Shown here: one piece after another, positions 1,096-62,957 of the stretch
How the letters are laid out: every line of letters begins with the position of its first letter
Numbering within the stretch: position 1 is the first letter of the stretch
Assembly: GCA_027486585.1 (NCBI GenBank)
Contig: JAIXOU010000003.1
Coordinates: 1 to 64,000, forward strand
DNA: 64,000 nt
DNA from: Verrucomicrobiaceae bacterium
GTDB lineage: Bacteria > Verrucomicrobiota > Verrucomicrobiia > Verrucomicrobiales > Verrucomicrobiaceae
Reading direction: 5' to 3'
Notes under the pieces: model-generated
Told to the model about the DNA's origin: nothing
Database searches by the model: none
Seen by the model: only the letters and a program-made list of their open reading frames with translations
Made by a program: the position numbers and the translations under genes

Positions 1096-1102
1096 CACGG
1101 GA

Positions 1103-5269: not shown

Positions 5270-5275
5270 AATGCT

Positions 5276-40471: not shown

Positions 40472-41737
40472 TCAGCTAAACAGGGCCGACACTGCTTTAC
40501 CCCCATCTGTAATCGGCACAGGCCGAGTCCCATCCATGAGTTCCTTGCTTGGATCAATGCCCATCGCTGCATGGATCGTCGCATGAAAGTCCACCAAGGG
40601 CACAGGATTCTCCACGGGCTTTTTAGAAAGCTCATCGGTGACACCGTAAGCACCGCAGTGCTTCAAACCGCCACCCGCAAGCACCATGGAAAACGTCGTG
40701 CCCTGATGACCACGACCACCACGTCCATCAAATTCAGGTGGCCGCCCAAACTCTGTGCCCACGACGACCAGCGTCTTGTCTAAAAGATTGTTTTTCTTCA
40801 GATCCCGAATCAATGCTGCCAATGCCGTGTCCAGTTCCTGAATGAGCAAATGTTGATTTTGAAACCCTTCGTTATGAATGTCCCAACCCGTGCCATTCAT
40901 GAAGTTCAAATTGTGCGACACCTCAATAAAACGCACCCCAGCCTGCACCAGGCGGCGTGACAATAAGCAACGCTGGCCGAACTCACCACCATACTCATTG
41001 CGCAGAGTGTCAGATTCTTCCTTGAGATTGAAATGACGCATGAATTTCGGTCCCGCAAGACGCAAGGCCTCCTGCTGTGCCTGCTCATAATCTGCGGCTG
41101 CTGAACCCTTCACGGTCCTTGCCATCAAAGGCCTCAGCAACTGATGCCGGACCTCCGCCCGTTTCTCATCCACATATTCAGGTCGTGTAAACCCAGAAGG
41201 CCCCGTGTTGGTATCCGTCAAATAGACATAGCCACTTTTGGCTCCCAGAAAACCTGGGCCGCGGCTGACATTGGGATAACCAATCAACATGTAAGCCGGC
41301 ACATCCGCACTAGCCGCACCACGCTGATTGGCGATGATGGAGCCAATGCTCGGATACACCACATTGCCAGAAATCATGCGACCCGTATGCACAATGTTCG
41401 TGGCAAAAGCATGCTCATCGATCACGTGATGATTCACCGTCCGCATCACCGTCACATGCTCCATGACCTTGGCCGTGCGACTCAGATGCTCCGTCACTTG
41501 CACACCCTTCACACTGGTATCGATCGACTTATAAAGCGACCCCGCCTTCTGCGGCTTACCGAGGTTGTCGCCCAGATTCTTGGGATCAAACGTATCAATT
41601 TGTGCCATCCCCCCACCCAACCAAATAAAGATGCAATGCTCCGCCTTTCCCTTCGGCACATGCACAGGCGTTTGATTCGCCAGCAACGGCGCAGCAGCAA
41701 AGGCAGCAGAGGAAGAAAGAAAGGAACGGCGTTTCAT
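40472..41737 (-). CDS. DUF1501 domain protein (sulfatase-like fold), third copy
   Basis: 421 residues. Tat-type signal ([20 protein letters not shown]). Core motifs are [59 protein letters not shown] and [22 protein letters not shown]. Shorter than the other two copies in this window and clearly divergent from them. No DUF1549/DUF1553 gene is adjacent. Exported and possibly hydrolytic; the function of the family is not established. Confidence 0.9.
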
Positions 41738-42410: not shown

Positions 42411-45400
42411 TTAAGGAGCTCTGAGCTCGACAACGCCGCTCAGTCTAGGTGCTGTGGTGACTTTCTCCGTGCCTACAGGAACTTTCGGCAGGTGGAAGAA
42501 ACCGTAACCTTGAGTAACCGTGCCCACTTTCACGATCATGCCCTCATAAGTGGCAGGACGATTCAATAGTGCAGTGGTTCCGGCTAGGGTGAAGCTACCG
42601 CTGAAGGTACCAGTGGCGGCATCGAGCTTGGCGACTTTAAGGCCATTCGCAGCAGTGGGTGGAACACTGGCGGTGTTAGTGAGGCCAGTTGGGCTTGGAT
42701 TAACGATGGTGATGGGCTGGCTCCAGCCTTCACTGAGAGCACCGAGACGGAAGTCCAGAAGGGCATTGTCGCTGGTAGCGGGCAGACCCAGCAAGCGCTG
42801 ACCAGCAGCGGGCCGGACATACGCCGAGCCCTCGACCTTAACCGAGAGCGGGGCGAATCCATCTTTGTAGATCAGGTCCGTTGTGACGCGAGGCTTCGAC
42901 CAGGAAAGGAGTCCCGTAAGGAGATTTGTCGTCACAGGAACAGCTCGGGTAATGTCAAACTGACCCACAAGACTGCCCGCATTTTTGTAAAGAGTCTGGA
43001 AAACAAGCACTTGGCCTCTCGATCCGACAAAACCACCAGCGGTAATAATATTGCCATCGGGGAGTTTGCCCGAAAGTTTCACGATGCCATCAGCACCAAT
43101 GCTGAAGGATGCAAAGCCATAGCCATCCGGTGAAGTTTCACCCCCTTGACCAGCGTCCAATCGAAGGGTGTAATTGGTCGCATAAGCAGATGCGGTGAGG
43201 GTCTTGGTCCAAGGATTCCGCCAGGCTGGAATGACGAGTTGGGTGCCATTCGGATGCGTCAGAGTCAGGCGCGCTGTTTGGTCAGCAACGTAGACCTCGA
43301 CCAGCGCAGCCAGGGGCGTTTTGGCAGTGTCGGCCATGGCGATGCCGGTGATGTTGCCTGTCAACACTTGATCACCCGCGCCACCGACCTGCAGCAGCAT
43401 ATTAGCGAAGCTGATCTTTGCCCGCGCACCAAGCGTGACACTGCCGGAGAAGGTGCCCGTGGGGTTGGTAGTGAGATCGAAACGACCACCAAGATTGCCA
43501 TTGAGCGCTGAGCGTGGAGCAGGTCCGGCGAAGGTGCCGATAGCATTCGGGTCGATCGCGTTGACCAGCAAGGTCCGCTTCACCTCAGCACTGCTGAGTT
43601 TGCCGGCGATAGCTTTAAAGGCGAGTAAGTAGCCACCGATCGTCGTGGTGGTAGGGCGTCCACTTAGCACGCCGGTGGTCGTATTCAAGTTAATGCCAGC
43701 AGGCAAGACACCAGACACACTGAAGCCAGTAGCCGCTGCACCAGCAATAGGCAGCACGGGCAGCTGATAGTAGTAGCTCTGACCGATAAAGGCCGTAGGC
43801 AAGCTGATGGCTCCAAGTGTGGGCGCTCTGCTGTTGACGTTGAGCGTGGTGTTGAAGCCATTGACAATGCTGCCACTGGGGCCCGTGACTTCACAGGTGT
43901 AGAGGCCCGCATCGGCCAGAGTCAGCGGTCTGATCACAAACGTGTTCGCTGTGGTGCTGAGGGCAGAGTTGCCGAGACGCCATACATAAGTGAGGTTATT
44001 GCCCGCAGCGTTGATCCTTGGAGTGAAGGTGCCACCAGCGAGCATGTTTACGGTCAGTGGTCGATTATCCACCACGCCAACTTCAGCAGCGATGCTGGTG
44101 ACGCTGATAGCACCAGCCTTCACCACGCAGGTGTAGGCTCCGGCGTTAGCCAGAGTCGTGCTGACGAAGGTGAGGTTCGGCCTAGTAGCTCCGCCCACGG
44201 CTTTGCCATTGAGCAGCCACTGATAGGTCAATGCGGATGTGTTGGGGCCGATGGCGACGACGCTGAGCGTGTAGCTACTGCCTAGTGCAATCATTGCTCC
44301 ACGCGGTTGACGCACGATGCTGAGCTGCGGTGTGCCAATGGTGAGGCTGGCTGGCTGGCTGATCGTCATGCCGGGTTCCATGGTCACATTGGTCAGGAAG
44401 ATGTCGCCGGTAGAGGAGCCTTCGGTGACGACGACATCATACACGCCGCGGTCTCCCGAGGTCGCGGAGCTAATGGAGTAGATAGGACCGATGGCACCAC
44501 TGATGTCCACACCGTCTTGACGCCACTGGTAGAAAACACCACCGCTCACGGCATTCGCTGCTGCAACGAAGCGCACGGAGGCTCCTGAGGCGATAGCGGC
44601 AGGAATGGGCTGTGTGACGAGGGTGATGTTGGTCACGATCTTGATGCCTCCAGGATTTTGCGTGCCATCCAGCGTGACATTGGTGCGTGAAGCCAGCGGG
44701 CCTTGGGTCAAGGTGAGGGTGTTCGTGGTGGCGGTGCTGCCATTGAAGATGGCACGATCAAAGAGAATGGTCGCACCGCTCTCCGCATCCCGCACAGCTT
44801 CGCGCAAGGAATAGCCTGCGCCGATAACACCGACAGGATCAAATTCATCCAGCGCTGTCGTGACGATCAGCACACGGCCTTCCACCGCGCCGATGTCGGG
44901 ATTGATGCCGAGTGGGCGTGGGAAGCCGCGTTGATCTGCAACGGGTGAGGTCGTGGCCAGAGCCTGGTCCACAGCAGGGCTGCCAACGCTGGGAACAAAG
45001 GTCAGCGTAGGACCGCCGTAGTCACCCAGCGCACTGAGCAATGGCGAGCTGGTGATGGGTGCGTTGCCGCTGGCAGTGATGCCTGTGACATTAAGCACGA
45101 TGTTGCTGCCTGCGTAGCTGAGTCTCAGGGCACCCGTGCTGTCGATGTCGCTTCCTGAGTTCAGGGCGATGATGCTGTTCTCCACGTTCAGCGTGCCGCT
45201 GCTGCGCACGGTGCCACCGATATTTGCGGAAAGCGTGCTAAAGACGATGCTTGCCGTGCCTTCATTGAAGACAGCGCCACCTTGAGAAGTAGCTGTGTTC
45301 TGCGCGAAGGTGCTTTGCAGGATCGTGGCCGTGCCCGTGCTATGGATGGCTCCACCACTAGCAGCTTGGTTATCTAGCAAGGTGCAGCGCTCCACTCGCA

Positions 45401-48400
45401 GTGTGCCTGCGTTTTGAATCGCACCACCGTTGCTGGTAAAGCTGGTGCCGCCACCATCCTTCAGCGTCACGCAAATCAGAGTTAGGCTGCTATTCGCGGC
45501 GACTTCAAAAAGGCGATGATTGCCATTGCCTTCGATGATGAGTCCTTGCGGCAAAGCAGAGCCATCAATGATGACGCCGTTTGGATCGTTGATCACCAGC
45601 GCGCTGCTGAGGCGCAAAGTTTGGCCGCTCATGGAGGCGGGGATGGCGATGACATCTGGCCCGCCATTGAGTGCGGCGGCGGCGACCATGCCGCGCAGAG
45701 AGCCAGTGCCGCTGTCGGTGAGATTCGTGATGCTGCGTAGCACATCGACGGTGTAGGTCATCGTCTTGCTGCCGTCCTCGGACGTCACATCGATCACGAT
45801 CTGTGTGCTACCAGAGTTCAGTGTGAGCACTTGGCTGAGCGTGCCAGAGGCCACATCTTGGCCATTGACCTTGATCTTGCTAAAGGGGTCCAAAGCGGTC
45901 GGCACCAACGTGATCGTTGTTTGCTCAGCAGGCACAGCCGTTTGATAACCCAGCGTGGCCATGGCAAACACGGGCGAGAGCGTGCCGCCAGTCACGGCGA
46001 GGTCGCTAAGGCCAGTCACGTTGGAAAGCGGACGTGTGCCAGCCAGCACGAAGACGGAGCGATTGTTTCCCTGATTAGGTTCACTGGCGATCATGATTTC
46101 ATTGGCGATCATCTCCAGCTCACGGCGGCCCGAGCTGCCCACCGTGCCAGCGGGGAACTGGATGAGCATCTCCATGCTGGCCAGCGGAGTCAAAGCTGGT
46201 ACAGACACAGTGGTGAGGGGATTCGCGCCACGAGTGGGTGCGTCCCAGACCTGTACTTCCGTGCCGGCGGAGATCGGTGAGCCGACGTTGGTCACACGCA
46301 CTCGGGCATTGGCACTGCCATCAGCCATGACATCGCTACCGAGGTATTCGAGGTAGAGATCAGGCCCACCCACACGCTTGGAGAGGCGGTTGTTGGTCTC
46401 GTCATTCTCGATGATGATGTTCTGCGGATCCATCACGGCAAAGACCGTATGCAAGTCTTCGCTATCACTCGGCATGGTCCAGTCCAGAGTCACCTCAGCC
46501 GAGGTGCCGCCTTTGAATTCACCCGGCACGGTGCTGGTGCCGATGAGGGTGCCGCCGGTGGCAGGATCACCATCGTAGAAGGCCAGCGCCGCATTCATCA
46601 CGGGCTTGTCACCGGTGTTCAAGGCGGTAGCTTTCAGGGTGACGATGCTGCCAGGTCCCCAGGAATTGGCCGTGGCGATGAGGCTCTCTGCTTCCACACT
46701 GAGTTCCGTGATCATGCGACGACGTGCCAGCAGGAGGTCCGTGCGGCCCGGGCGTAGCGCGCCATCCACGATGGTCTTGCTGCCATCGTCATTCTCTGCC
46801 TCGACGGTGACTTGATTCATCTCCGTGTTCAAATAAGCGATCAAAAGGTTGCCTTGAGCATCCAAAATCGGGGCCAGGAAGCGCTCTTGTTCGGCATCGT
46901 TGGAGAGGCGCACGTCTTCACTCCAACTGTCCGCGCTTGGCGTGTAGAGGCGGTAAGCCACATCGGGTGATTCATCGCCGAAGACGCCTTCCCACAGCAC
47001 CATGAGCTGATTCTCTGGCCCCATGGTCAGCGCGAAGTTGTCCGGTGTGCCGGGCAGATCTTTCGGGCGGACGATGCTTGGTTCACCAGTGAAGTTGGAC
47101 TGCATCACTAGATCACCATCGCGCAGCCACAGGGCATAGGCATCGCCCTGCGGTGTGAGGGCCAGCCTCACATCGGTATCCCGCACGGCATCATCGGTCA
47201 CACGCACGGGCGCGGCCCAAGTGCCACTGGTCCAGGTCTGGGAGTAAAGTTCATCGCTGGATTTGTCCCCCGCTGTCATGGTCTGCACCCAAGCGACCAC
47301 CGCCTTTTCACCATTGGCTGTGAAGTCCATCTGCGCGGTGCCAGTGATGCCGCTATGCACGAGTGCACCTGGGCCCCAGGAAGCGGTCGCCGCATCCCAG
47401 CGTGCTGCGAAGAGAGAGTCGGGATCGTCCGTGGTGCCGGAGATGACGTTGCCTGCATTGCTGACCCAGGTGAGCATCAGGTCACCATCGCTGAGCTTAC
47501 CACTCAGCACGGTGCGGTGATCCAGGATGTTGTTGTCCGTGATGGCTACAGGCGTGCTCCAGGCTCCGGTGCTGGCGTTCCAGTTGGCACTGACGATTTC
47601 AATCAAGGCGTTCTGACCTTCGATCAAACCCAGGCCATTCCAATTGGCGTCCTTGATACGTGACCACACGGCCACGGCATTGCCATTGCCATCAAAAGCG
47701 AGCTGCGGTGTCATCTGCGCGCGGGAGTCCACCGCGATGGGGCCGGGGATGGTCCAGGAGGTGCCATCGTAGTAGGTGAAGGCGACTTCAGAGAACTGGT
47801 AAGCATTCGCCGCACCGGTATCGCGGACGTAGAGCAGCATGATCTTGCCATCCTTCTCCGCCATCACGGGGCGGGAGCGTGGGAAGACATTGGAGATCAG
47901 CGGCAGCACGGCCTGTGTGGGTACGGGGTCGCTAGAGATGATCCGAGCGATGCCTATATCACCTTTGCCATCTTTCTTTTGAACGGGCACGTCAGCCTTC
48001 ACAGCGGGCCGACTCATGCGGTTAAAGGCGGTGAGTTCAGGAACGTTTGCCGTATTCTCAGGTGCGGCAGCAGCGACAGCACTTGTACGATTCATGCGGG
48101 CATTGCGTGCCTGCTGGATGGTGCTGGGGGAGGCCACATCCGCGAGTTCAAAACTCTCCGCGCCGTAGTCACGCCAACGCCGAGTCATCGGGCCGATGCC
48201 GCGAGAGCGAGTGCCCACCACTTGCAGCGGGGGCAGGGAGAAGTTCACGCCATCCTTGCTGTTGGCGGGTGCAGGGGCACCGAACATCTTGGCGAGCTGC
48301 GAGCTGGAAGTCGATGCGGCAGGGGCTTTCGGCGCATTGGGATCGTTCTTTGCGGAGTAGTTGAAGTGGCCGAGCGTGACCTCACCCTCATCATCAACGA

Positions 48401-51400: not shown

Positions 51401-54400
51401 GTCCGGTCAGAGTGAGAATGGTGGAGCCTTTGATGCCTGAATTCGCGGCGAGCAGGGTGAGCAGATTGAAGTTGTAACTGACGCTGGAAACCATGGTGGT
51501 GGGCTTATCCACACTGACAGCCCAAGTGAAGGTGCGGCCCAACGTATCTTCATTCGGTCCAGCGCTGAGGTTGGAGACGAAGTTCGATACGTTTTGAGTG
51601 CCGATGGCTGCCACCGAGAGGGTGGCAGGCAGATCAAAGCTCATCGGATCATCCACTGGCGCGACGGTGAGGGTGAAGCTCTTCGATGACGCGAGCACAC
51701 CATCGGAGGCAGTGACGGTGATGATGGAGCTGCCAAACTGATTGAGCGACGGCGTGAGCTGAATCGTGCGAGCCCCAGCACTGCCGCCGAGCAAGATGCC
51801 TGCGGGTGGGACGAGTGCAGGGTTGCTGGAGGTGGCGGTAACAACCATGCGGGTGAGATCGCCAGCATCTTCATCCGTGATGGTAAAGGGAATCACTGCT
51901 GAAGCGGTGTCCTCATTGATGCTCTGATTCGCCAAAGCATTGATGACTGGCGCATCTGGCTTGTCCTTGATGAGGACGGTGAAGTCCTTTTCAATCGCCG
52001 CTGCGCCGTTGCCTGCACGCACGCGGATTTTGTATTGGCTCTTCGTCTCGAAGTTCTTCCAGCCCGGCGTTTGCAGCGTGACGCTGCGTCCCGTGGGATT
52101 GCGCGTGTAGAACAGGCCGCTGTCATCGTTGCCGTCATAGACCAAGGAGATGTCACCAACTGTGTCGGGATCACCCACCACACTGAGCGTGCCCACATCG
52201 ACGCTGGCCCCGAGATCGGGGAATGTGTTCATGCTGCCAAGGATTTCCTGATACTTGCCGAAGTTCTCATCCAGTTGGTTCGGTGTGAGCGTGATGTCGG
52301 TGGCAGGCTCATCGACATCGGTGATGCGGACGGTGAAGGTCTGCTCCACGGACTTCACGGGGTAGCCATTGTCCGTGCTGGAGAGGCGAAGGTTCAGCGT
52401 GGTGCGCGTCTCGAAGTCGGCACTCTGATTCAGCGTGAGCGCACTGCCCTTGATGGCAAAGCGGGCGTTGTCACCATCGCCCAGGCCAGATACGAGCGCG
52501 TAGGTGTGCGACTGGCCATTGGTGATGTCGGGATCCGTGGTGGTAAGCGCGCCGACGATACCGTTCGGCGCGTTGCCTTCTGCGATGGTGTTGTTGTCCA
52601 GCGTGATGGCGCTGGGCGCGGTGTTCAGCGTGCTGCCAGCGAAGCGCAGACCCAGGGCGTAGAGGTGCAGGCTAGCGCCGTTGTTGTTCGCCTGGGCGAT
52701 GGTGATGCTGCGCGTGGGCTTGTCAGCCGTGAAACTGTATTCCACCCGCAGACCGCCATTGCTGCCGAACTGGCTCTGATCCACCTGGACCGCATCCGAG
52801 CCACTGCCGAAGTGCAGCACGCGCTGGCCAGCCGTGTCCGCATCCCACCCGACGGTGAGCAGAGTCAGCACATACTCCTGGCCCACGCCCAAGCCTTTGA
52901 GCTGAATCTTCGTGGGATTGCCGCCCCAGAAGAAGCTGCCCGCCAGTGTGGCACTGCCGCCACCTGCGCTGGTGAGGGTGTTCGTATCGCTGGGGAAGAG
53001 CTGCGGGGAGTCCAAATCGAAGTCCTGGTTGTTGCCCGTCATGTTGGTGATGCCAGGCACACTCACGTTGTTCACCGTGGCAGGCGCGGTGCTGCCAAAG
53101 TGCCGCGCCCAGAGCGTGCGACCTGGGACGATGCCAGAGGTGCTGTCATCCGTCCATGCCGCCGTGCTCCAGGTTCCGCGGCTGTCGTCATTGCGCAGCC
53201 TCACGATGAAGGTCTGCGTGGCACTGGTGTCCACACCACCACTGGCGGTGCCGCCATCGTCTTGCAAACTCACCGTCACCGTGGCCTGACCTGGGGTGAT
53301 GCCAGGGGCAAAGGTCAGTGTGCCATTGCGGCTGATACTGGGTAGCGTGCGGAAGAGCGCATTATTGTCCGTGGTGATGACGAAGCTCACCGTCTGGTTC
53401 GCTTCATTTGTGCCAGGGGAGATGCTTTTGGCAAAGGCAGGCATGGTGACGGTGCCTGAGCCAGGCAGCAGCTCCAACACGGGTGAGGTGGTGCCCACCG
53501 ACTTCCATCCTAAAGGACCGTCAGCACCCGCATACAGGGTGAGACCATCCGCACTCATCGCGAGACTGCTCCACCCTATGGAGGCGGAACTCGACTGCTC
53601 CACCCAGGTATCACCCGCATTCGCAGAGATCCAGATCTTAGTGTCAACCCCTGCTGCGGCGAGCACGCGGCCATCTGCCGAGGCGGCTACGGCTTTCCAA
53701 TTGCGCCCAGGGCTAGCCAAGCGGGAGATCCATGACTTACCCGAGTCGCTAGAGATCCACAGCCCGCCATTCAAGGTGGCCCCGAGGATGACATTGCCAT
53801 TCTTCGAGTAAGCAAGTGCGGACCAGAACTGAGAGCGGGGGCCTGAGCGCTTCAGCCACGTATCGCCACCGTTCTCCGTGGTGTAGAGTTCGTAGCTGCT
53901 GCCAGCCACAGCCTTCATGCCGTCGCCGGAGCAGGCGATGGCTTTCCAGTCCTCCTCGGTCGCCCGCACGGCCCAACCGGTGCCGGCATTGACGAGGATG
54001 TTCGTGAACTTCGATCCACCACCGATCAAGTAAACGCGGGAAGCGGTATCGGAGATAGCGAGCTTTGGCTCGGGACTGCGATCCCCGTTCCAGATGTAAC
54101 TCATGCCCACTGAGGTCCCGCCATTGCCTGAGCCAATGACATAACTGGAAGACCCACTTGCACCGCCTGCATACAGCACATTGGCATTGTCTGACATGGC
54201 GACGGAACTCATCGAGCCACCAAATTCATTGCGGAAGGGGCGTGGGGTGAAGCTGGTGCCGCCGTTGGTGGACGTGAGCATCTTTGCCCCATCACCAATC
54301 AAGAGCCTGGTGCCATCATCCGAGCAATCCACCAGTGAGAAGCCTTGGGCGAGCTGCGTCCAACTGCCGCCCGCAGGCAGCACGGTGCCCGGTGGCAGCG

Positions 54401-57400
54401 TGAAGCTTGGCGGTAAGTTCGGTGCGCCGGTGCCAGTGGCGAAGCTGCTGACCGCGCTGTAGCCAGTGCCTGCGCTATTGGTGGCGTAGGCTTTGAAGGT
54501 GTAGTTTGAGGTGGCGGCCAAACCGGTGACCGCTGCGGTGAAGACACCTGGGGCCATGCCGCCCGCGACGACCTTCGTGACGCCAGAGCCGCCGATGATA
54601 GGATTGTTGTTCGCGCTGGTGAGTGCATAGACGATGCCGCGCTCAGTGATGGTTGCGCCATTTTCGGCAGTGATGTTGCCACCGAGCGTAGCGGTGGTGG
54701 CGAGCACGGCTGTGCGGGTAGCCTCCGGTGCCAGCAAGGGTGCGCGTGGTGCGCGGGTCACGGCAAGGGTGTAGGTCTTCGTAGCGCTGCCATCGCGTGC
54801 GGTGACGAGGAGGGTCACGGTGTTCACGCCAGCGCCGAGGCGGATCGGGCGACTGATGTTGCCGGAGACGACGGTTTCATTGTTCACGAGGATCCTGGCA
54901 CCGGCTTCGGTGACGGTGGGCGTGAGGTTTAGCTCGGTGGCATCCACCGTGGTGGTGTAGTTCTCTGTGGCGGCAGCAAAGGCAGGTGAAAGCGTGCCGA
55001 GGCTGAGCGTGAGGGCGCTCAGCGTGGCATCCGCCGAGAGCGTGCTGAAGATCTCTACATCGCTGTAACTGGTGCCTGCACTGTTCGTGGCATAGCCGCG
55101 CAGCGCGTAACGGCTGTTCGCGGTGAGACCCGTGGCACTGGCGGTGAAGAAATTCCCGAAGACATCGCTGGGAGTGAAGGCCGTGACTCCCGTGCCGCCG
55201 ATGGTTGGGTTGTTATTCGTGGCGGACAAAGCGATGACGATGCCGCGTGCGGTCGCGGCGGCCCCCCCCGTGAATGCGATTCTGCCGCGCACGGTGGTGC
55301 TGTTCGCCGTGGTCGCTGCAAACTGCATCCGATCCAGCGTGGGCAGACCAGCCGCCCTTATCACGGTGATGGTGTAGGTCTTGGTGACGCTAGGGTCCTG
55401 CGCGGTGACGCGGACGGTGATCGTGTTGCTGCCCACCCCCAAGTATCCGCCGTCCACTTTGATCGTGGCATCGGCTTGAGCTGTGCTGCTGAAGACGTTG
55501 ACATTACCGACGCTGTTCGCCACACTCGCGGTGTAGTTCGTGGTCGCTGCCGAGAAAGCGGGTGACAGTGTGCTGGATGACAGGCTCAACGCGCTGAGGT
55601 CTGCATTCCGACTCACCGTGGTGAAGCTGGCGACGGGCGAGTATGCCGTGCCGATGTTATTCGTGACAAAAGCGCGGAAGCTGTAAGCACTGCCATGAGC
55701 CAAACCACTGACGTTCGCGGTGAAGCTAGCGCTAACCTGCGTGACACCACTGCCACCGATCTGTGGGTCGGCATTGGCACTGGTCAGTGCATAGACGAAG
55801 CCGCTTGCACTGATGCTGGCCCCGCCATTGCTGGCCAGGCGTCCGTTCAGGGTCGCGCTCAGGCTGCCCACGTTCGTCGCGCTGGAAAGGCCGAGCAGAG
55901 GCAGGCTGGCTGGCAGCTCAAACGCGCCGATGTCTGGCGTGCTCAGGATGGCTTGGCCGCGCTGATCGCTGGTGATGCTGCTGCCCACAGCAGCATTGAT
56001 CGCAGGGCTGCCAGCTTGCAGTCCCATGGTGCGTGTCGTCCCGCCATTTGCGGCAAGACCGGTGAGCAAGGGATCACTGGCGAGGAGGATGCCGAGGCCA
56101 CTCACATTGAAGTTTAAAGACACCATGGGCACGATGCTGGCCCCCAAACGAGTGATGGAGGCTTGATCGTTGTGGATGTCGAAGCCCTGAGCAGCGCTGT
56201 TGCCAGCGACGATGCTGTTCTCCAGGGTCATGGCTTTGTTCAAGCGTATGCCGCCGCCGAGGGTCGTCGCACTGTTTCCAGCGAGGGTGCTGTGCCGCAC
56301 CATGAGCGCGCCATCATTAAAGATCGCACCGCCGCTGCTGGCACTGTTGGAAGCTAAGGTGGACTGCGTGACGGTGAGCGTGCCGTTGTCATTGTAGATC
56401 GCACCGCCAAGGACACCGGTGTTGTTGTTCAGCGTGCAGCGCTCCACGTTCAGCGTACCAGAGCTAAAGATGGCACCGCCAGACAGGTCTCCACCTGCAT
56501 TTTGAATCGTCAGGCCCCGCAAAGTGAGCGTGCCACTACGCAGGTAGAACACACGGCAGCTCAAACGAAAGTCCGCACGACTGAGCGTGAGGCCATTGCC
56601 CTCCAAGGTGACGCCGCCAAGATCATCAATGACGAAGGCACTGTCATCGTCCGTGCCTGCAACGACGGCTGGATTTAAGCGCAAGGTCTGCGTGGCCAGT
56701 GCTGGGGCAAAGGTGATGACATTTGGCCCAGCGCAGTCGGCTGCGGCACGCAGGGCTTCACTCAGTGAGCCGGTGCCTGTGGCTGCGGTACTGGTGACGC
56801 CGAGATCGACATAGCGGAAGGCATTCCGCGCGGTGCCACTGCCGATGCTGGTGGTGACCACGATGTCCTTCCCGCCCAGCGTGCCAGCTGGCAGGGTGGC
56901 CGTGACCGAGGTGTCATCCAGCACGGTGATGTTCGTGGCAGGGACACCGCCAATGGTGATGGCTGTGGCTCCTGTGAAGTAGCGCCCACGCAGGCCAATG
57001 CTGCCACCGCCCGCAATCAAGCTAGCCACTGGCTGCACACCCGTAATCTCTGGCCGCGTGATGAGCAGGGTCTTGAAGGTAAGCACCGAGCTATAAGCTG
57101 TGCCCACGCCATTGGTCGCATAGGCTTTTACCGTGTAGTCGCTGTTTTCGACAAGATCCGTGAGGTCAGCCGTGAAGCTGCTGCTGCTAGAGATGAACCG
57201 GGTCACGTTCGTGCCGCCGAGGATCGGGTCTGCATTCGCTGAAGTCAGCGCAAACACAAAGCCGCGCTCTGTGACCGCACTGCCGCCATCCGCCGTTTGC
57301 GTGGCGGTGAGGCTGGCCGTGATCGCGCTGATGTTGGAGAGACCAAGCTGCGTCACCGTGGCTAGGATCGGCGTGCGGGTGACGACGATGCTGTAAGGCT

Positions 57401-60400
57401 TTGTTCGCGTGCCGGAGGCGTTGCTGACCGTAACGACTAGGGTGTTGGGACCATAGGCGAGTGGCAACGCAGTACTGGTGGTACCGGAAGCGAGGCTGCT
57501 GCCATTCACGCTGAGCCTCATCGCTGCGTCGGCGAGGGTCGGTGTGAGGGTGACGCTGGTGACGGTGTCCGCCACGCTGGCCGTGTAGCTCGTGGTGGCC
57601 GCAACAAAGGCTGGCGCGAGTGTTCCCGTGGAGATCGTGAGTGAGGCGAGATCCAGATTGGGCGCTGCCGTGAGAGTGAAGGTAAAGGTCTGTGCCGCGC
57701 TGCTGTTCACGCCGCCTTCCGCCGTGCCGCCATTGTCCTGGGCGATGATGCTGACCGTCGCCGTGCCAGTGCCACTTGCCGCAGGCGTATAAGTGAGCGA
57801 ACCATTCGCCGCGATGCTGGGCTGCACACTGAAAAGCGCATTATTGGTGTTCGTGACGTTGAAGCTGACCGTTTGTGTGGCCTCACTGGCGCGGGTGCCT
57901 GGGGAGATATTCCTCACAAAGTTGGGCACCGTTTGCTGCGGATCACCCGCGGCGGCGGTCTGGGTGGAGGAGCTGCTGGCTTCACTGGTATGCAGCACCT
58001 CAGTCATGGCTGCGAGGCTGGTGCCGTTTCCTGAGAGGCGGAGCTGGCTGGCGATGCCAATGGGCCGTGCTGCGGTTTGCACCCAGGTCACGCCGCTATC
58101 ACTGCTGGTATAGACGAGGCCTTCTTTATCCAGGCAAGCCGCGCGGGTGCCATCGCTGGAGCAAGTCACACTGTTGATGCCGGTATTTGGCCCCACTCGG
58201 GTGAAGGAGGTGCCGCTCGTGGTGGAGAGAAAGATTTGGCCCGTGGCGCCTTCATTCACCGCGCAGAGGATCAGGTTGCCATTCGCACTCATAGCGAGGT
58301 CGCGCATCCCTGGGTGAGCAAAGTTGGTGGAGGTCCATGAGGTACCGCCATTGCTGCTGACCTGTAACCTGCCACCTGTGACAAAGCCTGCGAGTCGGTT
58401 CCCATCTGCCGAGGAAGCGAGATTCAACGAACGTGGCAGCGTGCGTGTGGTCCATGCTAGCCCCTGATTCGTGGAGGTGTAGCTGACGCCACCAAAGCTA
58501 TGGTTCGAGGTAAAGAGTCTCAGGCCCGTACTGTCACAAGTGATGGCACCCCAGTCGCCAATCGGTACGCCCGTGCGCTCGGTCCATGTCAAACCGCTAT
58601 TGCCACTGATCCATATTCTACCACCCACGGCGGTAGCCGCCAGCCGCGTGCCATCGGCCGAGCTACAAATGCCACTCCATGAGCGAGTGCCTGCCGAAGT
58701 GCGCTCTGTCCAGCTCACCCCGCCATCCACACTGGTCCAAATGCTGCCGCCGTTTGCGCAGGCAGCGATGCGCTGGCCGTCTGCGGATAAAGCAATGCCG
58801 CGCCAGACGCGGTTCGCATCATTCAACCGCTGCGTCCAGGTGGCTCCCAGCACACTGCCGCTGGCGGTCGGGATGACGAAGCTCGGCGCGGTATTTGGGA
58901 AGTCCGCGCGGGTGACGGTAATGGCGTAATTCCGCGTGACACTCGTGTCCTGTGCCGTGACCAGCACGTTGATCACGTTCGCGCCGATGTTCAGGGTCAC
59001 GGGCTGGTTGCTGCCGTTCACAGTCACGGTCGCATCGGCTTGTGCCACGGTCGGGGTGACTGTGAGGCTCGTCGTCGCGTTTGGCACGGCAACCGTGTAG
59101 GTCGTCTGCGCAGCGGAGAAGGCTGGCGTGAGTGTGCCTGTGGACACGGTGAGTGCCGAGAGATCAGCAATGATCGAAGCCTGGCGCGTGGCGAGGATTT
59201 GATAGTCCTTCATGCTGCCATCCTGCGCGGTAACGCGCACCAAGATGGCATTTTCTCCGACATTCAGCTCCAACGGCGCGGAGGCCGTGCCAGAAGTCAC
59301 AGGCGCGAAACCACTCGTGTTCACCCGCACCTGAATCGTGGCCAGCGGATGAGTGCGCGTCGGCGTCAGAGTCATGCTGGTCGTGCTATGCAGCAGCGTC
59401 ATCGTGTAAGCAGTCGTGCCCGTGGCAAAGGCAGGGCTAAGTATGCCGCTGGAGGTCGCAAGCGTGGTGAGATCCGCGTTATTACTCGGCGTGATGAAGG
59501 TGCCAGTGCTGCTATAGCTGGTGCCGCCGCTATTGGTCGCATACGCCTTGAAGGTGTAGGCGGTACCACCCGTAAGTCCCGTGGCATTTGCATTGAAAGC
59601 TCCCGAGCTGAGGCCAGAGGCGACGAACCTCAGCACGCCAGGTCCACCGACGAAGGGATTCGGATTCGTCAAGGTGGAAGACACAACCACGCCGCGCTCG
59701 CTGAGTGCGCCCTGGCTGGCGACGGTACCGCCCAGGGTGATCGTGGTGGCCAGAGGCACGCCCCTCACCGGTTCTGTGACACTCGGTGGGTCGGTATCAC
59801 TGCCCACGCCCGTGAGTGCGATGTTGATAGTGCCTTCATCACTATCATTGTTCACGATGCGCAGTGTGGTGGCTCGATCACCCGTTCCGCCGGGGTTAAA
59901 AACAACGGTAAACGTGGTGCTGCCTAGTCCAGGCACAGTGCTCAACATGCCACTCGTGCTGACCACGTATTCGGCGGCTTTGTCTCCCGTCGTGATGACG
60001 CTGCTGATGGTCAGCGCACCGTTGCCTTGGTTCTGAATGGTGAACGTGCGCGGTGAACCGGCCACACCCATACGTTGCAAACCAAAGTCCTGTGCGCTGC
60101 TCGGCGTGACGTTGATCTCTGGCGGCTGCACCGTGGTGTTAAAAGTGCCGACGCTGCTGTAACTGGTGCCCTGACTATTAGTCGCATACGCCTTGAAGCT
60201 GTAGGCGCTGCCTGCGCTGAGGCCAGTGACGTTTTGCGTGAACACGCCCGTGCTGGTGCCGCTGGCCACGGTCTTCGTCACGCCACTGCCGCTAATGAGC
60301 GGGTCGTTGTTCGCGCTGGTGAGGGAGTAAACCACACCGCGCTCTGTGAGAGCTGCCGCACCATTGCTGGTCACGTTACCACCGAGCGTGGCGATGGTGA

Positions 60401-62957
60401 AACTGACCGCACTGCTGGTCGGCGTGGTAACGGTGGGCCTGTTGATTTGGCTTTCAAAAGCGCCGATGTCTGCGCCCTCAAAGATGGGAGAGCCGCGCTG
60501 ATCACTGGTGATACTGCTGCCGACAGCGGCATTGATCGCTGGGCTACCTGCCAGCAGTGGGAAGGTCTTCGTGGGTCCACCATGGGTGCTAAAGGTGCCG
60601 AGCAGGGGATCACTGGCGATGATGCTGCCGCTTCCTGCAAGGCCGGAGTTCGTGTGCAGGTTGGGGATGATGTTGGCACCGACGCGGGTGAGAGTGGGGC
60701 CATTGAGGATGTTAAGGCCAGCGTTAGCCATGTTGCCTGCCACGATGCTGTTTTCCAGGGTCATGCCGGTTTGCATAAAGATGCCACCACCTGCATTGGC
60801 CGTGTTTCCCGCGATGGTACAATGCCGCACGGTAAGGGTGCCGTTGTTATGAATGCCAGCCCCATTGCCCGCCACGTTGCCGGTGAGGGTACACTGCACT
60901 AGGGTGGCTGTGCTGTAGTTGTAAATGGCACCACCTTCCTGGCCAGCGGCGCTGTTGTTGTTCAGTGTGCATCTCTCCAGGGTGATCGTGGCGCTGCTAA
61001 AGATGCCGCCGCCGGGCATGGCACCACCGGCATTGGCGATGGTGAGGTTTCTCAAGGTCAGCGAGCCGGTGCGCGCATAGAAAATACGGGTGTTGGTCAG
61101 GTTCGTCGTCAGCGTGAGACCGTTGGCTAGGCTGCTAGCATCCAGAATCACGCCCCCAGTGTCATCGGTGACGAAACCACTGCCCACAACTATGGGCGTC
61201 GTGGTGAGGGTGATCGTCTGTCCCGAAATGCCAGCAGCAAAGGTAATGGTGTTCGCGCCTGACAAAGTTTGCGCATCGCTGAGTGCCTCGCGCAAGGTGC
61301 CGCTGCCCGTATCTGCCGTGCTGGTGACGATGAGGTCGGTGTAGCGGTAGCCATTGGTCAGGGTGGCACTGCCGTTCGCATTCGTGACCACGATGTTCTT
61401 TGTTCCCACGCTGCCTAAGGGTGCGGTGCAGGTGATGGTGGTGCTGTTGACCACTACAACGTTGGTGGCAGCGACACCGCCGATGGTCACGGTCGGTGTA
61501 CCCGAGAAATCCGTTCCAGTGAGTGTGACCGCGCCACCCGCAGGCAAGGACAGATTTGGCTGCACAGTGGTGATACTCGGCGGTGCAGGCACGGTGCGGA
61601 TACTGAGGTTCGCGGCGCTGACGCTGGCGGTGAAGGCATTATTAATGAAGTCCGTAAAACGAAGCTTCCAGGTGCCGTTCGGTGCTTTGCTGCCAAAGCT
61701 GGTGCGGAAAGAACGGGCTGTGTTGGAATACTCAGGCCGGTAGTTTCCCGCTGCTGCACTGCCACTCGGCGTGCTGGCCACCACGTTGCTGAGTAGCGTG
61801 GAGTAAGCATCGTTAAAGACATAGGGACCCGCGATGTCGGTATCATCCACGACATGGGCGCGGAAGACATCACAGAGCGTGTTGTCCGGCGCGATGAGTT
61901 CGACAGACAACTCATGCGCATTTCCTTGTGCGGGGCTAAGCGTCCAGTCAAGGGTGACATCACTCACGACGCCCGTTTTGCCAGTCACGGTAAAGGTCAC
62001 TTCACGCGGAGAGGCACTGGAGATAGCCCCAAGATTGGCCCCAGGGAACTCGCTAGCATAGAACTGGATGTCGCTGATGCCCGTGTTGCCTGATCCTCCC
62101 GTGACATCGTAGCGCACGTAGCGCGCGGTGATGGGGGCGGCGAAGTTGTCCGAGGCGGTCCAGGACGAGGCTTTGCTGTAGCTGCGAGTGGCCACGGGCG
62201 AGGACATGTCCGCGTTGTTGGAGAAGATCAGGTCAAAGCTTGTCGCGCGCTCCGCATCAAAGAGGCGATCAAACATGTCGAAGCCCGTGATCGCCCGCTG
62301 ACTGCCGAGGTCGAAGTCCACATACGCATTCGCGTTCTGGCCCAGGCTGGCATACTCCACGCCCGCCACCATCCCAATGCCTGCGATGCCATTCGCGGCA
62401 TTCGCTGCCGCATATTGCGAGCTGAATGGGGTGGCCGAGCCGATCACCGTCACGCCTGTGATTGGCACCGTGGCCGCATTCGTGCTCAGGAAGCTGATCT
62501 CCGTGGTGCCCACCAGCGAAGGCGAGCCGACCACTGCCAGCACCTCCCAGCGCACCCTTTGCGCTGTCACGGCCCTGAAGCGCTGAATGAAGCCCTGTCC
62601 CTGTGACCCCGTCTGTGCTTGGGTAAAGCTAATGACTGTGTCCGTCGCCGCATTAAAGCCCGCCGTGCCATCCGTATCAAAGATCAGCCGATTCGCGCCG
62701 ATACTGCGTTGAGCCAGATTAAGCGTCACATTCACAAAGCCATCCACCGTCCGCGCTGAGCCGAAGTCGAACTCCAGAAAAGTATTCGTGCCCTGCTCAG
62801 AAAGGAACTCAGACAGCCCTTGGCCCACCGCATTGCTGCCCACATAAATACCCTGGAAGCCGGGAGAGGAACTCGTCACCGTGGGCGCCGGCAGCACTGT
62901 GGCAGAAAGTGGCAAGACGAAAGCCAGCGTGAGCGCGAAGTGGATGAGCTTTTGCAT
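42411..62957 (-). CDS. Giant secreted multidomain beta-rich protein (6,848 residues), probable surface or matrix protein
   Basis: Signal peptide (MQKLIHFALTLAFVLPLSAT). Rough order of domains by residue: two discoidin-like domains (25-300); proprotein-convertase P-like domain (303-455); TIG/IPT (457-540); right-handed beta helix (540-840); choice-of-anchor D (943-1052); a section alternating Fn3-like modules (marker TERG-VYALTSAN, six copies) with cadherin-like beta-sandwich modules (marker L-SLGTLSPAFA, six copies), interrupted by BNR-type propellers (1360-1650, 2845-3160), a second TIG (1965-2052) and a second beta helix (2052-2352); jelly-roll-like (3255-3442); cadherin repeats (3448-4210); carboxypeptidase-regulatory-like (4365-4440); propeller-like (4985-5400); CARDB-type (5400-5640); third beta helix (5740-6030); Ig-like (6105-6460); a C-terminal ~390-residue Gly-rich domain. 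No catalytic domain, anchor or sorting motif recognised. Confidence 0.92.
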   Translation of the reverse strand: MQKLIHFALTLAFVLPLSATVLPAPTVTSSSPGFQGIYVGSNAVGQGLSEFLSEQGTNTFLEFDFGSARTVDGFVNVTLNLAQRSIGANRLIFDTDGTAGFNAATDTVISFTQAQTGSQGQGFIQRFRAVTAQRVRWEVLAVVGSPSLVGTTEISFLSTNAATVPITGVTVIGSATPFSSQYAAANAANGIAGIGMVAGVEYASLGQNANAYVDFDLGSQRAITGFDMFDRLFDAERATSFDLIFSNNADMSSPVATRSYSKASSWTASDNFAAPITARYVRYDVTGGSGNTGISDIQFYASEFPGANLGAISSASPREVTFTVTGKTGVVSDVTLDWTLSPAQGNAHELSVELIAPDNTLCDVFRAHVVDDTDIAGPYVFNDAYSTLLSNVVASTPSGSAAAGNYRPEYSNTARSFRTSFGSKAPNGTWKLRFTDFINNAFTASVSAANLSIRTVPAPPSITTVQPNLSLPAGGAVTLTGTDFSGTPTVTIGGVAATNVVVVNSTTITCTAPLGSVGTKNIVVTNANGSATLTNGYRYTDLIVTSTADTGSGTLREALSDAQTLSGANTITFAAGISGQTITLTTTPIVVGSGFVTDDTGGVILDASSLANGLTLTTNLTNTRIFYARTGSLTLRNLTIANAGGAMPGGGIFSSATITLERCTLNNNSAAGQEGGAIYNYSTATLVQCTLTGNVAGNGAGIHNNGTLTVRHCTIAGNTANAGGGIFMQTGMTLENSIVAGNMANAGLNILNGPTLTRVGANIIPNLHTNSGLAGSGSIIASDPLLGTFSTHGGPTKTFPLLAGSPAINAAVGSSITSDQRGSPIFEGADIGAFESQINRPTVTTPTSSAVSFTIATLGGNVTSNGAAALTERGVVYSLTSANNDPLISGSGVTKTVASGTSTGVFTQNVTGLSAGSAYSFKAYATNSQGTSYSSVGTFNTTVQPPEINVTPSSAQDFGLQRMGVAGSPRTFTIQNQGNGALTISSVITTGDKAAEYVVSTSGMLSTVPGLGSTTFTVVFNPGGTGDRATTLRIVNNDSDEGTINIALTGVGSDTDPPSVTEPVRGVPLATTITLGGTVASQGALSERGVVVSSTLTNPNPFVGGPGVLRFVASGLSSGAFNANATGLTGGTAYTFKAYATNSGGTSYSSTGTFITPSNNADLTTLATSSGILSPAFATGTTAYTMTLLHSTTSMTLTPTRTHPLATIQVRVNTSGFAPVTSGTASAPLELNVGENAILVRVTAQDGSMKDYQILATRQASIIADLSALTVSTGTLTPAFSAAQTTYTVAVPNATTSLTVTPTVAQADATVTVNGSNQPVTLNIGANVINVLVTAQDTSVTRNYAITVTRADFPNTAPSFVIPTASGSVLGATWTQRLNDANRVWRGIALSADGQRIAACANGGSIWTSVDGGVSWTERTSAGTRSWSGICSSADGTRLAATAVGGRIWISGNSGLTWTERTGVPIGDWGAITCDSTGLRLFTSNHSFGGVSYTSTNQGLAWTTRTLPRSLNLASSADGNRLAGFVTGGRLQVSSNGGTSWTSTNFAHPGMRDLAMSANGNLILCAVNEGATGQIFLSTTSGTSFTRVGPNTGINSVTCSSDGTRAACLDKEGLVYTSSDSGVTWVQTAARPIGIASQLRLSGNGTSLAAMTEVLHTSEASSSSTQTAAAGDPQQTVPNFVRNISPGTRASEATQTVSFNVTNTNNALFSVQPSIAANGSLTYTPAASGTGTATVSIIAQDNGGTAEGGVNSSAAQTFTFTLTAAPNLDLASLTISTGTLAPAFVAATTSYTASVADTVTSVTLTPTLADAAMRLSVNGSSLASGTTSTALPLAYGPNTLVVTVSNASGTRTKPYSIVVTRTPILATVTQLGLSNISAITASLTATQTADGGSAVTERGFVFALTSANADPILGGTNVTRFISSSSSFTADLTDLVENSDYTVKAYATNGVGTAYSSVLTFKTLLITRPEITGVQPVASLIAGGGSIGLRGRYFTGATAITIGGVPATNITVLDDTSVTATLPAGTLGGKDIVVTTSIGSGTARNAFRYVDLGVTSTAATGTGSLSEALRAAADCAGPNVITFAPALATQTLRLNPAVVAGTDDDSAFVIDDLGGVTLEGNGLTLSRADFRLSCRVFYLRSGTLTLRGLTIQNAGGDLSGGAIFSSGTLNVERCTLNNNTGVLGGAIYNDNGTLTVTQSTLASNSASSGGAIFNDGALMVRHSTLAGNSATTLGGGIRLNKAMTLENSIVAGNSAAQGFDIHNDQASITRLGASIVPMVSLNFNVSGLGILLASDPLLTGLAANGGTTRTMGLQAGSPAINAAVGSSITSDQRGQAILSTPDIGAFELPASLPLLGLSSATNVGSLSATLNGRLASNGGASISASGFVYALTSANADPQIGGSGVTQVSASFTANVSGLAHGSAYSFRAFVTNNIGTAYSPVASFTTVSRNADLSALSLSSSTLSPAFSAATTNYTASVANSVGNVNVFSSTAQADATIKVDGGYLGVGSNTITVRVTAQDPSVTKTYTITVIRAAGLPTLDRMQFAATTANSTTVRGRIAFTGGAAATARGIVIALSATNNNPTIGGTGVTAFTPSDVFGNFFTASATGLTANSRYALRGYATNSAGTSYSDVEIFSTLSADATLSALTLSLGTLSPAFAAATENYTTTVDATELNLTPTVTEAGARILVNNETVVSGNISRPIRLGAGVNTVTLLVTARDGSATKTYTLAVTRAPRAPLLAPEATRTAVLATTATLGGNITAENGATITERGIVYALTSANNNPIIGGSGVTKVVAGGMAPGVFTAAVTGLAATSNYTFKAYATNSAGTGYSAVSSFATGTGAPNLPPSFTLPPGTVLPAGGSWTQLAQGFSLVDCSDDGTRLLIGDGAKMLTSTNGGTSFTPRPFRNEFGGSMSSVAMSDNANVLYAGGASGSSSYVIGSGNGGTSVGMSYIWNGDRSPEPKLAISDTASRVYLIGGGSKFTNILVNAGTGWAVRATEEDWKAIACSGDGMKAVAGSSYELYTTENGGDTWLKRSGPRSQFWSALAYSKNGNVILGATLNGGLWISSDSGKSWISRLASPGRNWKAVAASADGRVLAAAGVDTKIWISANAGDTWVEQSSSASIGWSSLAMSADGLTLYAGADGPLGWKSVGTTSPVLELLPGSGTVTMPAFAKSISPGTNEANQTVSFVITTDNNALFRTLPSISRNGTLTFAPGITPGQATVTVSLQDDGGTASGGVDTSATQTFIVRLRNDDSRGTWSTAAWTDDSTSGIVPGRTLWARHFGSTAPATVNNVSVPGITNMTGNNQDFDLDSPQLFPSDTNTLTSAGGGSATLAGSFFWGGNPTKIQLKGLGVGQEYVLTLLTVGWDADTAGQRVLHFGSGSDAVQVDQSQFGSNGGLRVEYSFTADKPTRSITIAQANNNGASLHLYALGLRFAGSTLNTAPSAITLDNNTIAEGNAPNGIVGALTTTDPDITNGQSHTYALVSGLGDGDNARFAIKGSALTLNQSADFETRTTLNLRLSSTDNGYPVKSVEQTFTVRITDVDEPATDITLTPNQLDENFGKYQEILGSMNTFPDLGASVDVGTLSVVGDPDTVGDISLVYDGNDDSGLFYTRNPTGRSVTLQTPGWKNFETKSQYKIRVRAGNGAAAIEKDFTVLIKDKPDAPVINALANQSINEDTASAVIPFTITDEDAGDLTRMVVTATSSNPALVPPAGILLGGSAGARTIQLTPSLNQFGSSIITVTASDGVLASSKSFTLTVAPVDDPMSFDLPATLSVAAIGTQNVSNFVSNLSAGPNEDTLGRTFTWAVSVDKPTTMVSSVSYNFNLLTLLAANSGIKGSTILTLTGREMNGSNVVSTVSRTCTVNISSNRAPTDIVLSNAVTDENVTNLDIGTLTTTDPDTTDTHSYSFVDWTGREATANGLFTVNGSTLRWKDRPNFETASSYHVRIRTTDRSTQGAASFEKSFTITLRDLNEPATDVTFGLGVEENGGQGLLVGKLVAVDPERLQSHSFALVAGAGDTHNSTVTLTNGNELIANGSYNFEVTPALSLRVQVTDNGNPPQTMVKELKVPVRDRNDPPTRPVFTFTGLPEGNHDATRPPNTAPRQIGTLSSTDEDGTPMAYEIIQRFYGPVEGDDSHMFYIEGQTNKVMFRGLADFDSAKKRFSFKANAYNVTKRGDKWFDVGIGRAVATVEVDISPVDEAPVFGEFPSAVQRPGAKLMDIFYAAQDIDSPTATVSLEFSPDNGATWRTCTSVKGDVGVVSGNLFGARKEPRDDLHPLEGTYRELFRLAQLATGFAKVKSGFEYVGGYQVSNDRHIEWDVGKDFDQQFIQNGRFRLTMVSGTNGATRTRDVGTVPGTSSGYVTVDTRFDGPLMISGIVTNKLRNMGWPDVKLQIGTRTAVTDTKGYYFIANAAPGKLTTSHPNFCGYDIDVAAPDRGQGVAMPTLRLTPNTEPPVVNSISLSAGKSPAFLSEVPITSTVGANISWNTNGIFAFPHLFEVDVSANGRQLNKFTHQTSYNFTSSAYSLQSILTPSMIPGNNWIGVQAKNDLGLQSTLEKLSVTYLPLHPLIKLFQPKSTWSSPNGFESYSANHFGFNFGSTDFNYTIENRLIGKWGVVFGTTGSFDYTVNDANWELAYRGGDQTRFGNQTKSHKFFTRPKAKIEEQAAKDKAWFTNKFFLALPDDDDQGKIALFLGEDIREAAFFARAIGTLDPTTGWTLPDVEGAVIQRSYGPIGEVGVLDSIPGMQPVAEFVDLTLTLSAGTDLGGSARFAPKKGSAQFKDVLSYRLKDATISGALEVRATLSLDAKLAGAEVWVGGRGFARVGYPAPLLREVDLKVQAGYEWWVGFVDDEGEVTLGHFNYSAKNDPNAPKAPAASTSSSQLAKMFGAPAPANSKDGVNFSLPPLQVVGTRSRGIGPMTRRWRDYGAESFELADVASPSTIQQARNARMNRTSAVAAAAPENTANVPELTAFNRMSRPAVKADVPVQKKDGKGDIGIARIISSDPVPTQAVLPLISNVFPRSRPVMAEKDGKIMLLYVRDTGAANAYQFSEVAFTYYDGTSWTIPGPIAVDSRAQMTPQLAFDGNGNAVAVWSRIKDANWNGLGLIEGQNALIEIVSANWNASTGAWSTPVAITDNNILDHRTVLSGKLSDGDLMLTWVSNAGNVISGTTDDPDSLFAARWDAATASWGPGALVHSGITGTAQMDFTANGEKAVVAWVQTMTAGDKSSDELYSQTWTSGTWAAPVRVTDDAVRDTDVRLALTPQGDAYALWLRDGDLVMQSNFTGEPSIVRPKDLPGTPDNFALTMGPENQLMVLWEGVFGDESPDVAYRLYTPSADSWSEDVRLSNDAEQERFLAPILDAQGNLLIAYLNTEMNQVTVEAENDDGSKTIVDGALRPGRTDLLLARRRMITELSVEAESLIATANSWGPGSIVTLKATALNTGDKPVMNAALAFYDGDPATGGTLIGTSTVPGEFKGGTSAEVTLDWTMPSDSEDLHTVFAVMDPQNIIIENDETNNRLSKRVGGPDLYLEYLGSDVMADGSANARVRVTNVGSPISAGTEVQVWDAPTRGANPLTTVSVPALTPLASMEMLIQFPAGTVGSSGRRELEMIANEIMIASEPNQGNNRSVFVLAGTRPLSNVTGLSDLAVTGGTLSPVFAMATLGYQTAVPAEQTTITLVPTALDPFSKIKVNGQDVASGTLSQVLTLNSGSTQIVIDVTSEDGSKTMTYTVDVLRSITNLTDSGTGSLRGMVAAAALNGGPDVIAIPASMSGQTLRLSSALVINDPNGVIIDGSALPQGLIIEGNGNHRLFEVAANSSLTLICVTLKDGGGTSFTSNGGAIQNAGTLRVERCTLLDNQAASGGAIHSTGTATILQSTFAQNTATSQGGAVFNEGTASIVFSTLSANIGGTVRSSGTLNVENSIIALNSGSDIDSTGALRLSYAGSNIVLNVTGITASGNAPITSSPLLSALGDYGGPTLTFVPSVGSPAVDQALATTSPVADQRGFPRPLGINPDIGAVEGRVLIVTTALDEFDPVGVIGAGYSLREAVRDAESGATILFDRAIFNGSTATTNTLTLTQGPLASRTNVTLDGTQNPGGIKIVTNITLVTQPIPAAIASGASVRFVAAANAVSGGVFYQWRQDGVDISGAIGPIYSISSATSGDRGVYDVVVTEGSSTGDIFLTNVTMEPGMTISQPASLTIGTPQLSIVRQPRGAMIALGSSYTLSVVAIGPNTSALTYQWLLNGKAVGGATRPNLTFVSTTLANAGAYTCVVKAGAISVTSIAAEVGVVDNRPLTVNMLAGGTFTPRINAAGNNLTYVWRLGNSALSTTANTFVIRPLTLADAGLYTCEVTGPSGSIVNGFNTTLNVNSRAPTLGAISLPTAFIGQSYYYQLPVLPIAGAAATGFSVSGVLPAGINLNTTTGVLSGRPTTTTIGGYLLAFKAIAGKLSSAEVKRTLLVNAIDPNAIGTFAGPAPRSALNGNLGGRFDLTTNPTGTFSGSVTLGARAKISFANMLLQVGGAGDQVLTGNITGIAMADTAKTPLAALVEVYVADQTARLTLTHPNGTQLVIPAWRNPWTKTLTASAYATNYTLRLDAGQGGETSPDGYGFASFSIGADGIVKLSGKLPDGNIITAGGFVGSRGQVLVFQTLYKNAGSLVGQFDITRAVPVTTNLLTGLLSWSKPRVTTDLIYKDGFAPLSVKVEGSAYVRPAAGQRLLGLPATSDNALLDFRLGALSEGWSQPITIVNPSPTGLTNTASVPPTAANGLKVAKLDAATGTFSGSFTLAGTTALLNRPATYEGMIVKVGTVTQGYGFFHLPKVPVGTEKVTTAPRLSGVVELRAP

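Follow-up and report, generated by a model that had tools for sequence, protein, structure and literature searches.

The giant protein encoded in the window (the whole stretch of 64,000 nucleotides of Verrucomicrobiaceae DNA analysed here) ends in a domain of about 384 residues that recurs at the C-termini of many other large proteins, in its own genome and elsewhere in the Verrucomicrobiota. Judged from the sequences, this recurrence strongly supports a domain that is portable, mostly terminal and linked to export. We consider the best explanation to be a portable C-terminal sorting or anchoring domain that works with partner machinery; we infer both the sorting function and the machine, and regard this explanation as probable with moderate confidence.

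The giant gene and its modules

A single uninterrupted frame of 6,848 codons with an ATG start occupies positions 42411-62957 on the minus strand, and the plus strand across the same positions contains many stops. This bears out the 20.5 kb frame of 6,848 residues described in the earlier note. The flanking genes, encoding a chorismate synthase and a DUF1501 protein, lie on the same strand as the giant gene. The window holds DUF1501 genes at 36193-37659 and 40472-41737, with a third relative at 8110-9585, and at 28136-31825 a serine/threonine kinase is fused to WD40-like and RCC1-like repeats. The features of the giant gene are as follows.

42411..62957, minus strand: whole gene, 6,848-residue secreted mosaic protein (open frame)
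62898..62957, minus strand: signal-peptide-like N-terminal stretch, about residues 1-20 (sequence, boundary by eye)
62073..62426, minus strand: discoidin-like F5/8 type C domain, residues 178-295 (Pfam, E 1.6e-8)
60108..61655, minus strand: duplicated block of TIG, beta helix and Fn3-like segment, copy 1, residues 435-950 (Pfam, NCBIfam, self comparison)
58008..58847, minus strand: propeller-like region 1, residues 1371-1650 (self comparison; NF045728 at 1494-1630, below its cut-off)
55590..57116, minus strand: duplicated block, copy 2, residues 1948-2456 (self comparison)
53493..53990, minus strand: propeller-like region 2, residues 2990-3155 (self comparison; PF15902 at 3066-3126)
52320..52589, minus strand: cadherin domain PF00028, residues 3457-3546 (Pfam, E 2.5e-13)
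46380..46682, minus strand: CARDB domain, residues 5426-5526 (Pfam, E 2e-9)
44865..45854, minus strand: beta helix 3, residues about 5702-6031 (NCBIfam, self comparison)
43605..43823, minus strand: He_PIG Ig-like domain directly before the C-terminal domain, residues 6379-6451 (Pfam)
42414..43565, minus strand: C-terminal domain, predicted to form three barrels, residues 6465-6848 (genome searches, profile, AlphaFold2 model)
43209..43559, minus strand: predicted barrel 1 of the C-terminal domain, 8 strands (AlphaFold2 model)
42816..43196, minus strand: predicted barrel 2, 8 strands (AlphaFold2 model)
42414..42788, minus strand: predicted barrel 3, 8 strands (AlphaFold2 model; also folded alone)
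42414..42449, minus strand: conserved last strand at the protein end, P-x-L-S-G-x-V-x-L or a variant in most copies (alignment)

Pfam identifies six Cadherin-like PF12733 stretches (five plus one), two TIG domains, one Cadherin, one F5/8 C (discoidin), one CARDB, and Ig and He_PIG modules. Comparison of the window against itself adds six Fn3-like segments that are alike among themselves (residues ~841-948, 1058-1163, 1867-1972, 2361-2456, 2547-2641 and 2746-2848), two propeller regions related to each other (1371-1650 and 2990-3155), and three beta-helix regions, the third being a more distant copy. Weak matches to Chlamydia PMP repeats in Pfam and NCBIfam fall inside this third helix. The counts of six Fn3-like modules, six cadherin-like modules and three beta helices given in the earlier note agree with these analyses. 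Of the other modules that it listed, the discoidin and CARDB domains were found by Pfam and its several propellers correspond to two related regions; its P-like domain was unmatched by Pfam at E 0.01. The suggestion that the protein grew by internal duplication of module groups is supported by a collinear repeat of about 510 residues, in which 435-950 corresponds to 1948-2456.

NCBIfam identifies three choice_anch_Q stretches (two plus one) and one choice_anch_D. The NCBI naming of these two families reflects their pairing with varied C-terminal anchors, and their presence in the window protein supports a sorting reading of its end.

Recurrence of the C-terminal domain

Searching the last 390 residues against the organism's own genome (6.5 Mb in 147 contigs) gave 36 matches, and a profile of 22 sequences gave 43. 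The alignment behind the profile took 22 of 30 loci, leaving out three that are non-terminal (L013, L014, L027) and five that match partially (L015, L025, L028, L029, L030). We then located the domain within the frames using hmmsearch without filters. It ends 0-21 residues before the stop in 29 of the 33 own-genome frames inspected. One of the 29, on contig C51, has two copies, a partial terminal one (profile positions 9-241) and a fuller internal one. Three of the four exceptions are tandem paralogues of 1,829-2,105 residues on contig C115 (7726-25253; L073, L074, L093), which carry 107, 180 and 456 residues beyond the domain, Ig-like by eye. The fourth, C97|26999, continues for at least 190 residues beyond a partial domain match, and its frame is cut by the end of the stretch inspected. 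A position in the middle of other proteins, which the earlier note had named as counting against its proposal, is rare: the three paralogues, one internal full copy and one cut frame.

The 33 frames, some of which are cut, have a median length of 1,829 residues and span 495 to 8,883. Their N-terminal parts fall into 18 clusters, the largest with 14 members, when half coverage of the longer partner is required. Partner modules include He_PIG, Ig, Kelch, cadherin and Calx-beta in the frames scanned from this and two related species. A crude signal-peptide rule fits 27 of the 31 domain-bearing frames with an intact start, compared with 111 of 282 neighbouring genes (39%). In the alignment the domain is conserved up to its last strand. 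P, G and Y make up the invariant columns of the profile, and most of the nearly invariant columns hold G; this composition looks structural, not catalytic.

The earlier note recognised no known anchor or secretion signal in these residues. The 22 members gave a single weak match in Pfam (PF21461, E 0.058) and three in NCBIfam, each in a single member, with a best E of 0.01. No PDB sequence matches the domain, 20 members had no match in PHROGs, and the plasmid records, searched with the single window domain, gave none. Literature searches brought up no description of this domain among the papers listed. In one frame, L077:7614-10490, residues 890-923 inside the domain match TIGR04254 ('putative globular PEP-CTERM protein') below its cut-off, at E 0.0075, a possible distant link to a named family.

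A motif-led scan covered the genome contigs of 84,980 species from all phyla. With one conserved motif as its query, the scan misses relatives that lack it, and it confirmed 19 of 108 motif hits, every one in Verrucomicrobiota records. Nine of these 19 loci are titled Verrucomicrobiaceae, and bins of Prosthecobacter debontii and of Brevifollis gellanilyticus, now listed as Prosthecobacter gellanilyticus, are included. At the 19 named loci, all 20 domain-bearing frames end no more than 9 residues after the domain; L052 among them runs off its contig.

The domain is present in 33 of 68 genomes of the family. Within the genus the distribution is all or none: of 48 species, 23 each show 13 matches or more and 25 show zero, with about the best 28 matches scored per genome. 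Up to 51 matches were found in one genome. In a sample of the phylum, with four candidates scored per genome, 21 of 387 genomes match at 1e-10; five belong to the family, two to the rest of the order, three to the rest of the class and 11 to other classes. The terminal position was checked in 20 stretches from 13 genomes (two from the family, three from the rest of the order, three from the rest of the class and five from other classes). The domain ends no more than 49 residues before the frame end in all 21 frames concerned, at 31 residues or fewer in 19 of them and at 37 and 49 in two from one genome (G117); two are cut by a contig end and nine come from other classes. The domain is wider than one small lineage.

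Recurrence at the C-termini of many large secreted proteins, which the earlier note had proposed as its check, is thus found in the own genome, at the named loci and in other genomes. Its suggestion of a 'lineage-specific sorting domain' is partly supported: the domain recurs, but in several Verrucomicrobiota classes; sorting itself is the probable reading.

An rpoB tree of 20 relatives, which covers only part of the domain-positive genomes found by profile, groups five positive genus members (G000, G003, G005, G006, G009) with support of 92/92 and eight domain-negative genus members with 100/99; the positives G027 and G030 fall outside the genus. The all-or-none distribution also fits one gain or loss followed by gene-family expansion.

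Predicted fold and gene neighbourhood

AlphaFold2 was given an alignment that combined the window domain and the 19 named loci. The model has 382 residues, a pLDDT of 89.7, a pTM of 0.88 and 24 strands, which we read as three tandem eight-stranded beta-barrels. In the PDB, TbpB was the one structure that Foldseek matched at E 0.001 or better, and its TM-score of 0.22 is low. Using VIA-align, barrel 1 matches the C-barrel of fHbp (Z 8.9, rmsd 3.4, 104 aligned) and also TbpB and hemophilin at Z about 7.4-7.6; a quinohemoprotein dehydrogenase (Z 7.8) and a designed barrel (Z 7.5) score equally with the latter two. Barrel 3, folded alone from an alignment without L050, whose end is repeated, reached a pLDDT of 90.2, and its best structural matches are avidins (Z 7.0), with fHbp at Z 6.0. 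The model suggests a soluble-type eight-stranded barrel as the unit, and the matches to fHbp, TbpB and avidin are fold-level and do not prove kinship. Two points here count against a sorting reading: eight-stranded barrels are widespread as a fold, and the third barrel is closer to avidins than to any secretion handle. We also considered whether the three barrels arose by triplication of one. Profile comparison gave E 0.0018 over 35 columns with 15% probability for barrel 1 against barrel 3 and nothing for the other pairs; it is unconvincing, so a common origin of the barrels is unsupported.

Close to three domain genes of the own genome lies a secreted gene resembling TIGR02597, with gaps of 13, 67 and 314 bases. 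We take TIGR02597 to be the family of these three neighbours; its model matches the one on contig C45 below cut-off and leaves the other two unmatched at E 0.01. A profile built from the three was used to search relatives, and 20 further places were inspected. In domain-positive genomes, 10 of 16 neighbour-like genes are immediately adjacent to a domain gene and share its strand, four do not, and for two the end of the stretch or contig prevents judging; these counts partly reflect one conserved operon because the profile was built from own-genome neighbours. The four other places are in domain-negative genomes. At four places (in G018, G019, G005 and G009) the domain gene is followed by a related secreted protein of 650-700 residues, one member of which was tested and had no Pfam match. 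The order of TIGR02597-like gene, three-barrel gene and 650-700-residue family is kept at L204, L207, L209 and L210.

TIGR02597 is present in 27 of 37 genomes, domain-positive and domain-negative alike. In the domain-negative sister clade its match ends 0-14 residues before the stop in all eight large frames examined, which were chosen because of that match. Domain-negative genomes also contain five frames with lengths of 10,000-12,000 residues (G001:C28, G008:C24, G012:C92, G016:C1, G023:C2) that have only 80-93 residues after a partial TIGR02597-like match, and TIGR02597 matches are found in large frames of domain-positive genomes too. The family is often next to the domain in an operon, yet its occurrence in domain-negative genomes argues that it is not a dedicated partner.

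Export routes and known sorting systems

We propose that an N-terminal signal peptide would export a giant modular protein of adhesin type to the surface or the medium, and that the last ~384 residues would act as a portable recognition handle for Verrucomicrobiota outer-membrane machinery. This machinery would export the protein or hold it on the surface, leaving the N-terminal modules free to vary. More specifically, and as a tentative proposal, the three-barrel tail may be the recognition signal of an undescribed Verrucomicrobiota system for outer-membrane secretion or surface anchoring, which in some species would serve dozens of large proteins per genome; sister species in the genus lack the tail, and some of their large proteins end in a TIGR02597-type domain. 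We profiled four candidate families (Slam, SprA, GspD-like secretins and exosortase) and identified no partner machinery among them. SprA matched in none of 37 genomes, and its controls gave no match either. The distributions of the other three do not follow the domain.

An adhesive or ligand-binding tip (for glycan, heme or matrix) that is last by chance, on proteins exported by generic machinery, is rather unlikely in our view. Ligand binding is known for proteins with barrels of this size (barrel 3 resembles avidins; barrel 1 resembles fHbp, TbpB and hemophilin), and three paralogues tolerate extra modules beyond the domain. Against it, the domain is attached to varied partner proteins, with up to 51 matches per genome, is nearly always last and is conserved to the last strand. 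It is improbable that the proteins are passive cargo of a type II-like secretin route and the domain a folding cap without recognition. Every one of the 37 genomes does contain GspD-like secretins, with 2-13 matches that without exception score below the curated TIGRFAM cut-off, and in the own genome about 9.5 kb separate one of them, C88:45712-47769, from the start of the domain gene C88:57308-79567, just outside the stretch inspected; however, positives and negatives have secretins alike, and 20 secretin neighbourhoods of up to 20 kb each contain no domain-bearing frame.

We regard type 11 (Slam/DUF560) secretion, in which the terminal barrel would serve for targeting as it does in TbpB and fHbp, as very improbable. 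The layout is shared with the cargo described in PMC12282271, a variable N-terminal part followed by a C-terminal eight-stranded barrel, and barrel 1 fits best on the fHbp C-barrel; this likeness is weak evidence because the fold is generic and the model predicted. Against it, the terminal barrel is closer to avidins than to fHbp, and the Slam family PF04575 is over cut-off in none of 15 domain-positive genomes (two sub-threshold), nor in 14 control genomes. Its sole match over cut-off among the 37 genomes is in a domain-negative genome and holds stops. A self-inserting membrane barrel of autotransporter type would account for the C-terminal position, the repetitive passengers and the PMP repeat matches in the third beta helix. 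It is hardly credible, however: the model shows three small barrels, distinct from one another and most similar to soluble barrels, instead of one 12-stranded pore, and no autotransporter model matched the domain members.

A portable C-terminal sorting or anchoring domain thus remains our preferred reading. The recurrence of the three-barrel tail suggests a still undescribed way of sending proteins to the cell surface or holding them there; if correct, it points to a new route that brings giant proteins to the surface of Verrucomicrobiota. With dozens of copies in some species of the genus and none in their sisters, the domain lends itself well to tracing the machine through phylogenetic profiling, and a domain-positive named strain, Prosthecobacter gellanilyticus, makes the idea accessible to bench testing. 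Annotators could also use it to label many large proteins that end in sequence without a match in Pfam or NCBIfam.

Among known systems, type 9 secretion (T9SS) relies on a conserved C-terminal beta domain carried by many unrelated large secreted proteins of one genome, and the domain described here is likewise a conserved C-terminal beta domain on many large proteins of one genome. The T9SS tail is one small beta-sandwich, whereas the present domain is predicted to form three barrels, and at E 1 none of the 22 members matched a T9SS tail model. The PEP-CTERM signal consists of a short motif and a transmembrane helix. By eye, this combination is absent from the C-termini of 30 loci, and no model for it matched the 22 members. 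PEP-CTERM/exosortase is a C-terminal sorting class found in the same phylum, according to PMC4960237. Unlike the three-barrel domain, exosortase is found in all 24 genus members, with or without the domain (33 of 37 genomes overall); it was not found in G036, which has 19 domain matches. The type 11 cargo proteins TbpB, fHbp and hemophilin share with our domain a C-terminal eight-stranded barrel behind variable modules, and they provide top matches of barrel 1. They differ from its three tandem barrels; the TbpB and lipoprotein-C barrel families gave no sequence match in the 22 members, and Slam is missing over cut-off as above. The text of PMC12282271, which concerns Proteobacteria, contains no word starting 'Verrucomicrobi'. 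TIGR02597 resembles the domain in ending large proteins of the domain-negative sister clade and is often its operon neighbour, but the two lack profile similarity. Beyond the shared barrel fold, the domain falls into no named family by that family's own membership test. By analogy, it may nevertheless work like known C-terminal sorting domains, with which it shares their general trait, recurrence at the C-termini of many unrelated exported proteins.
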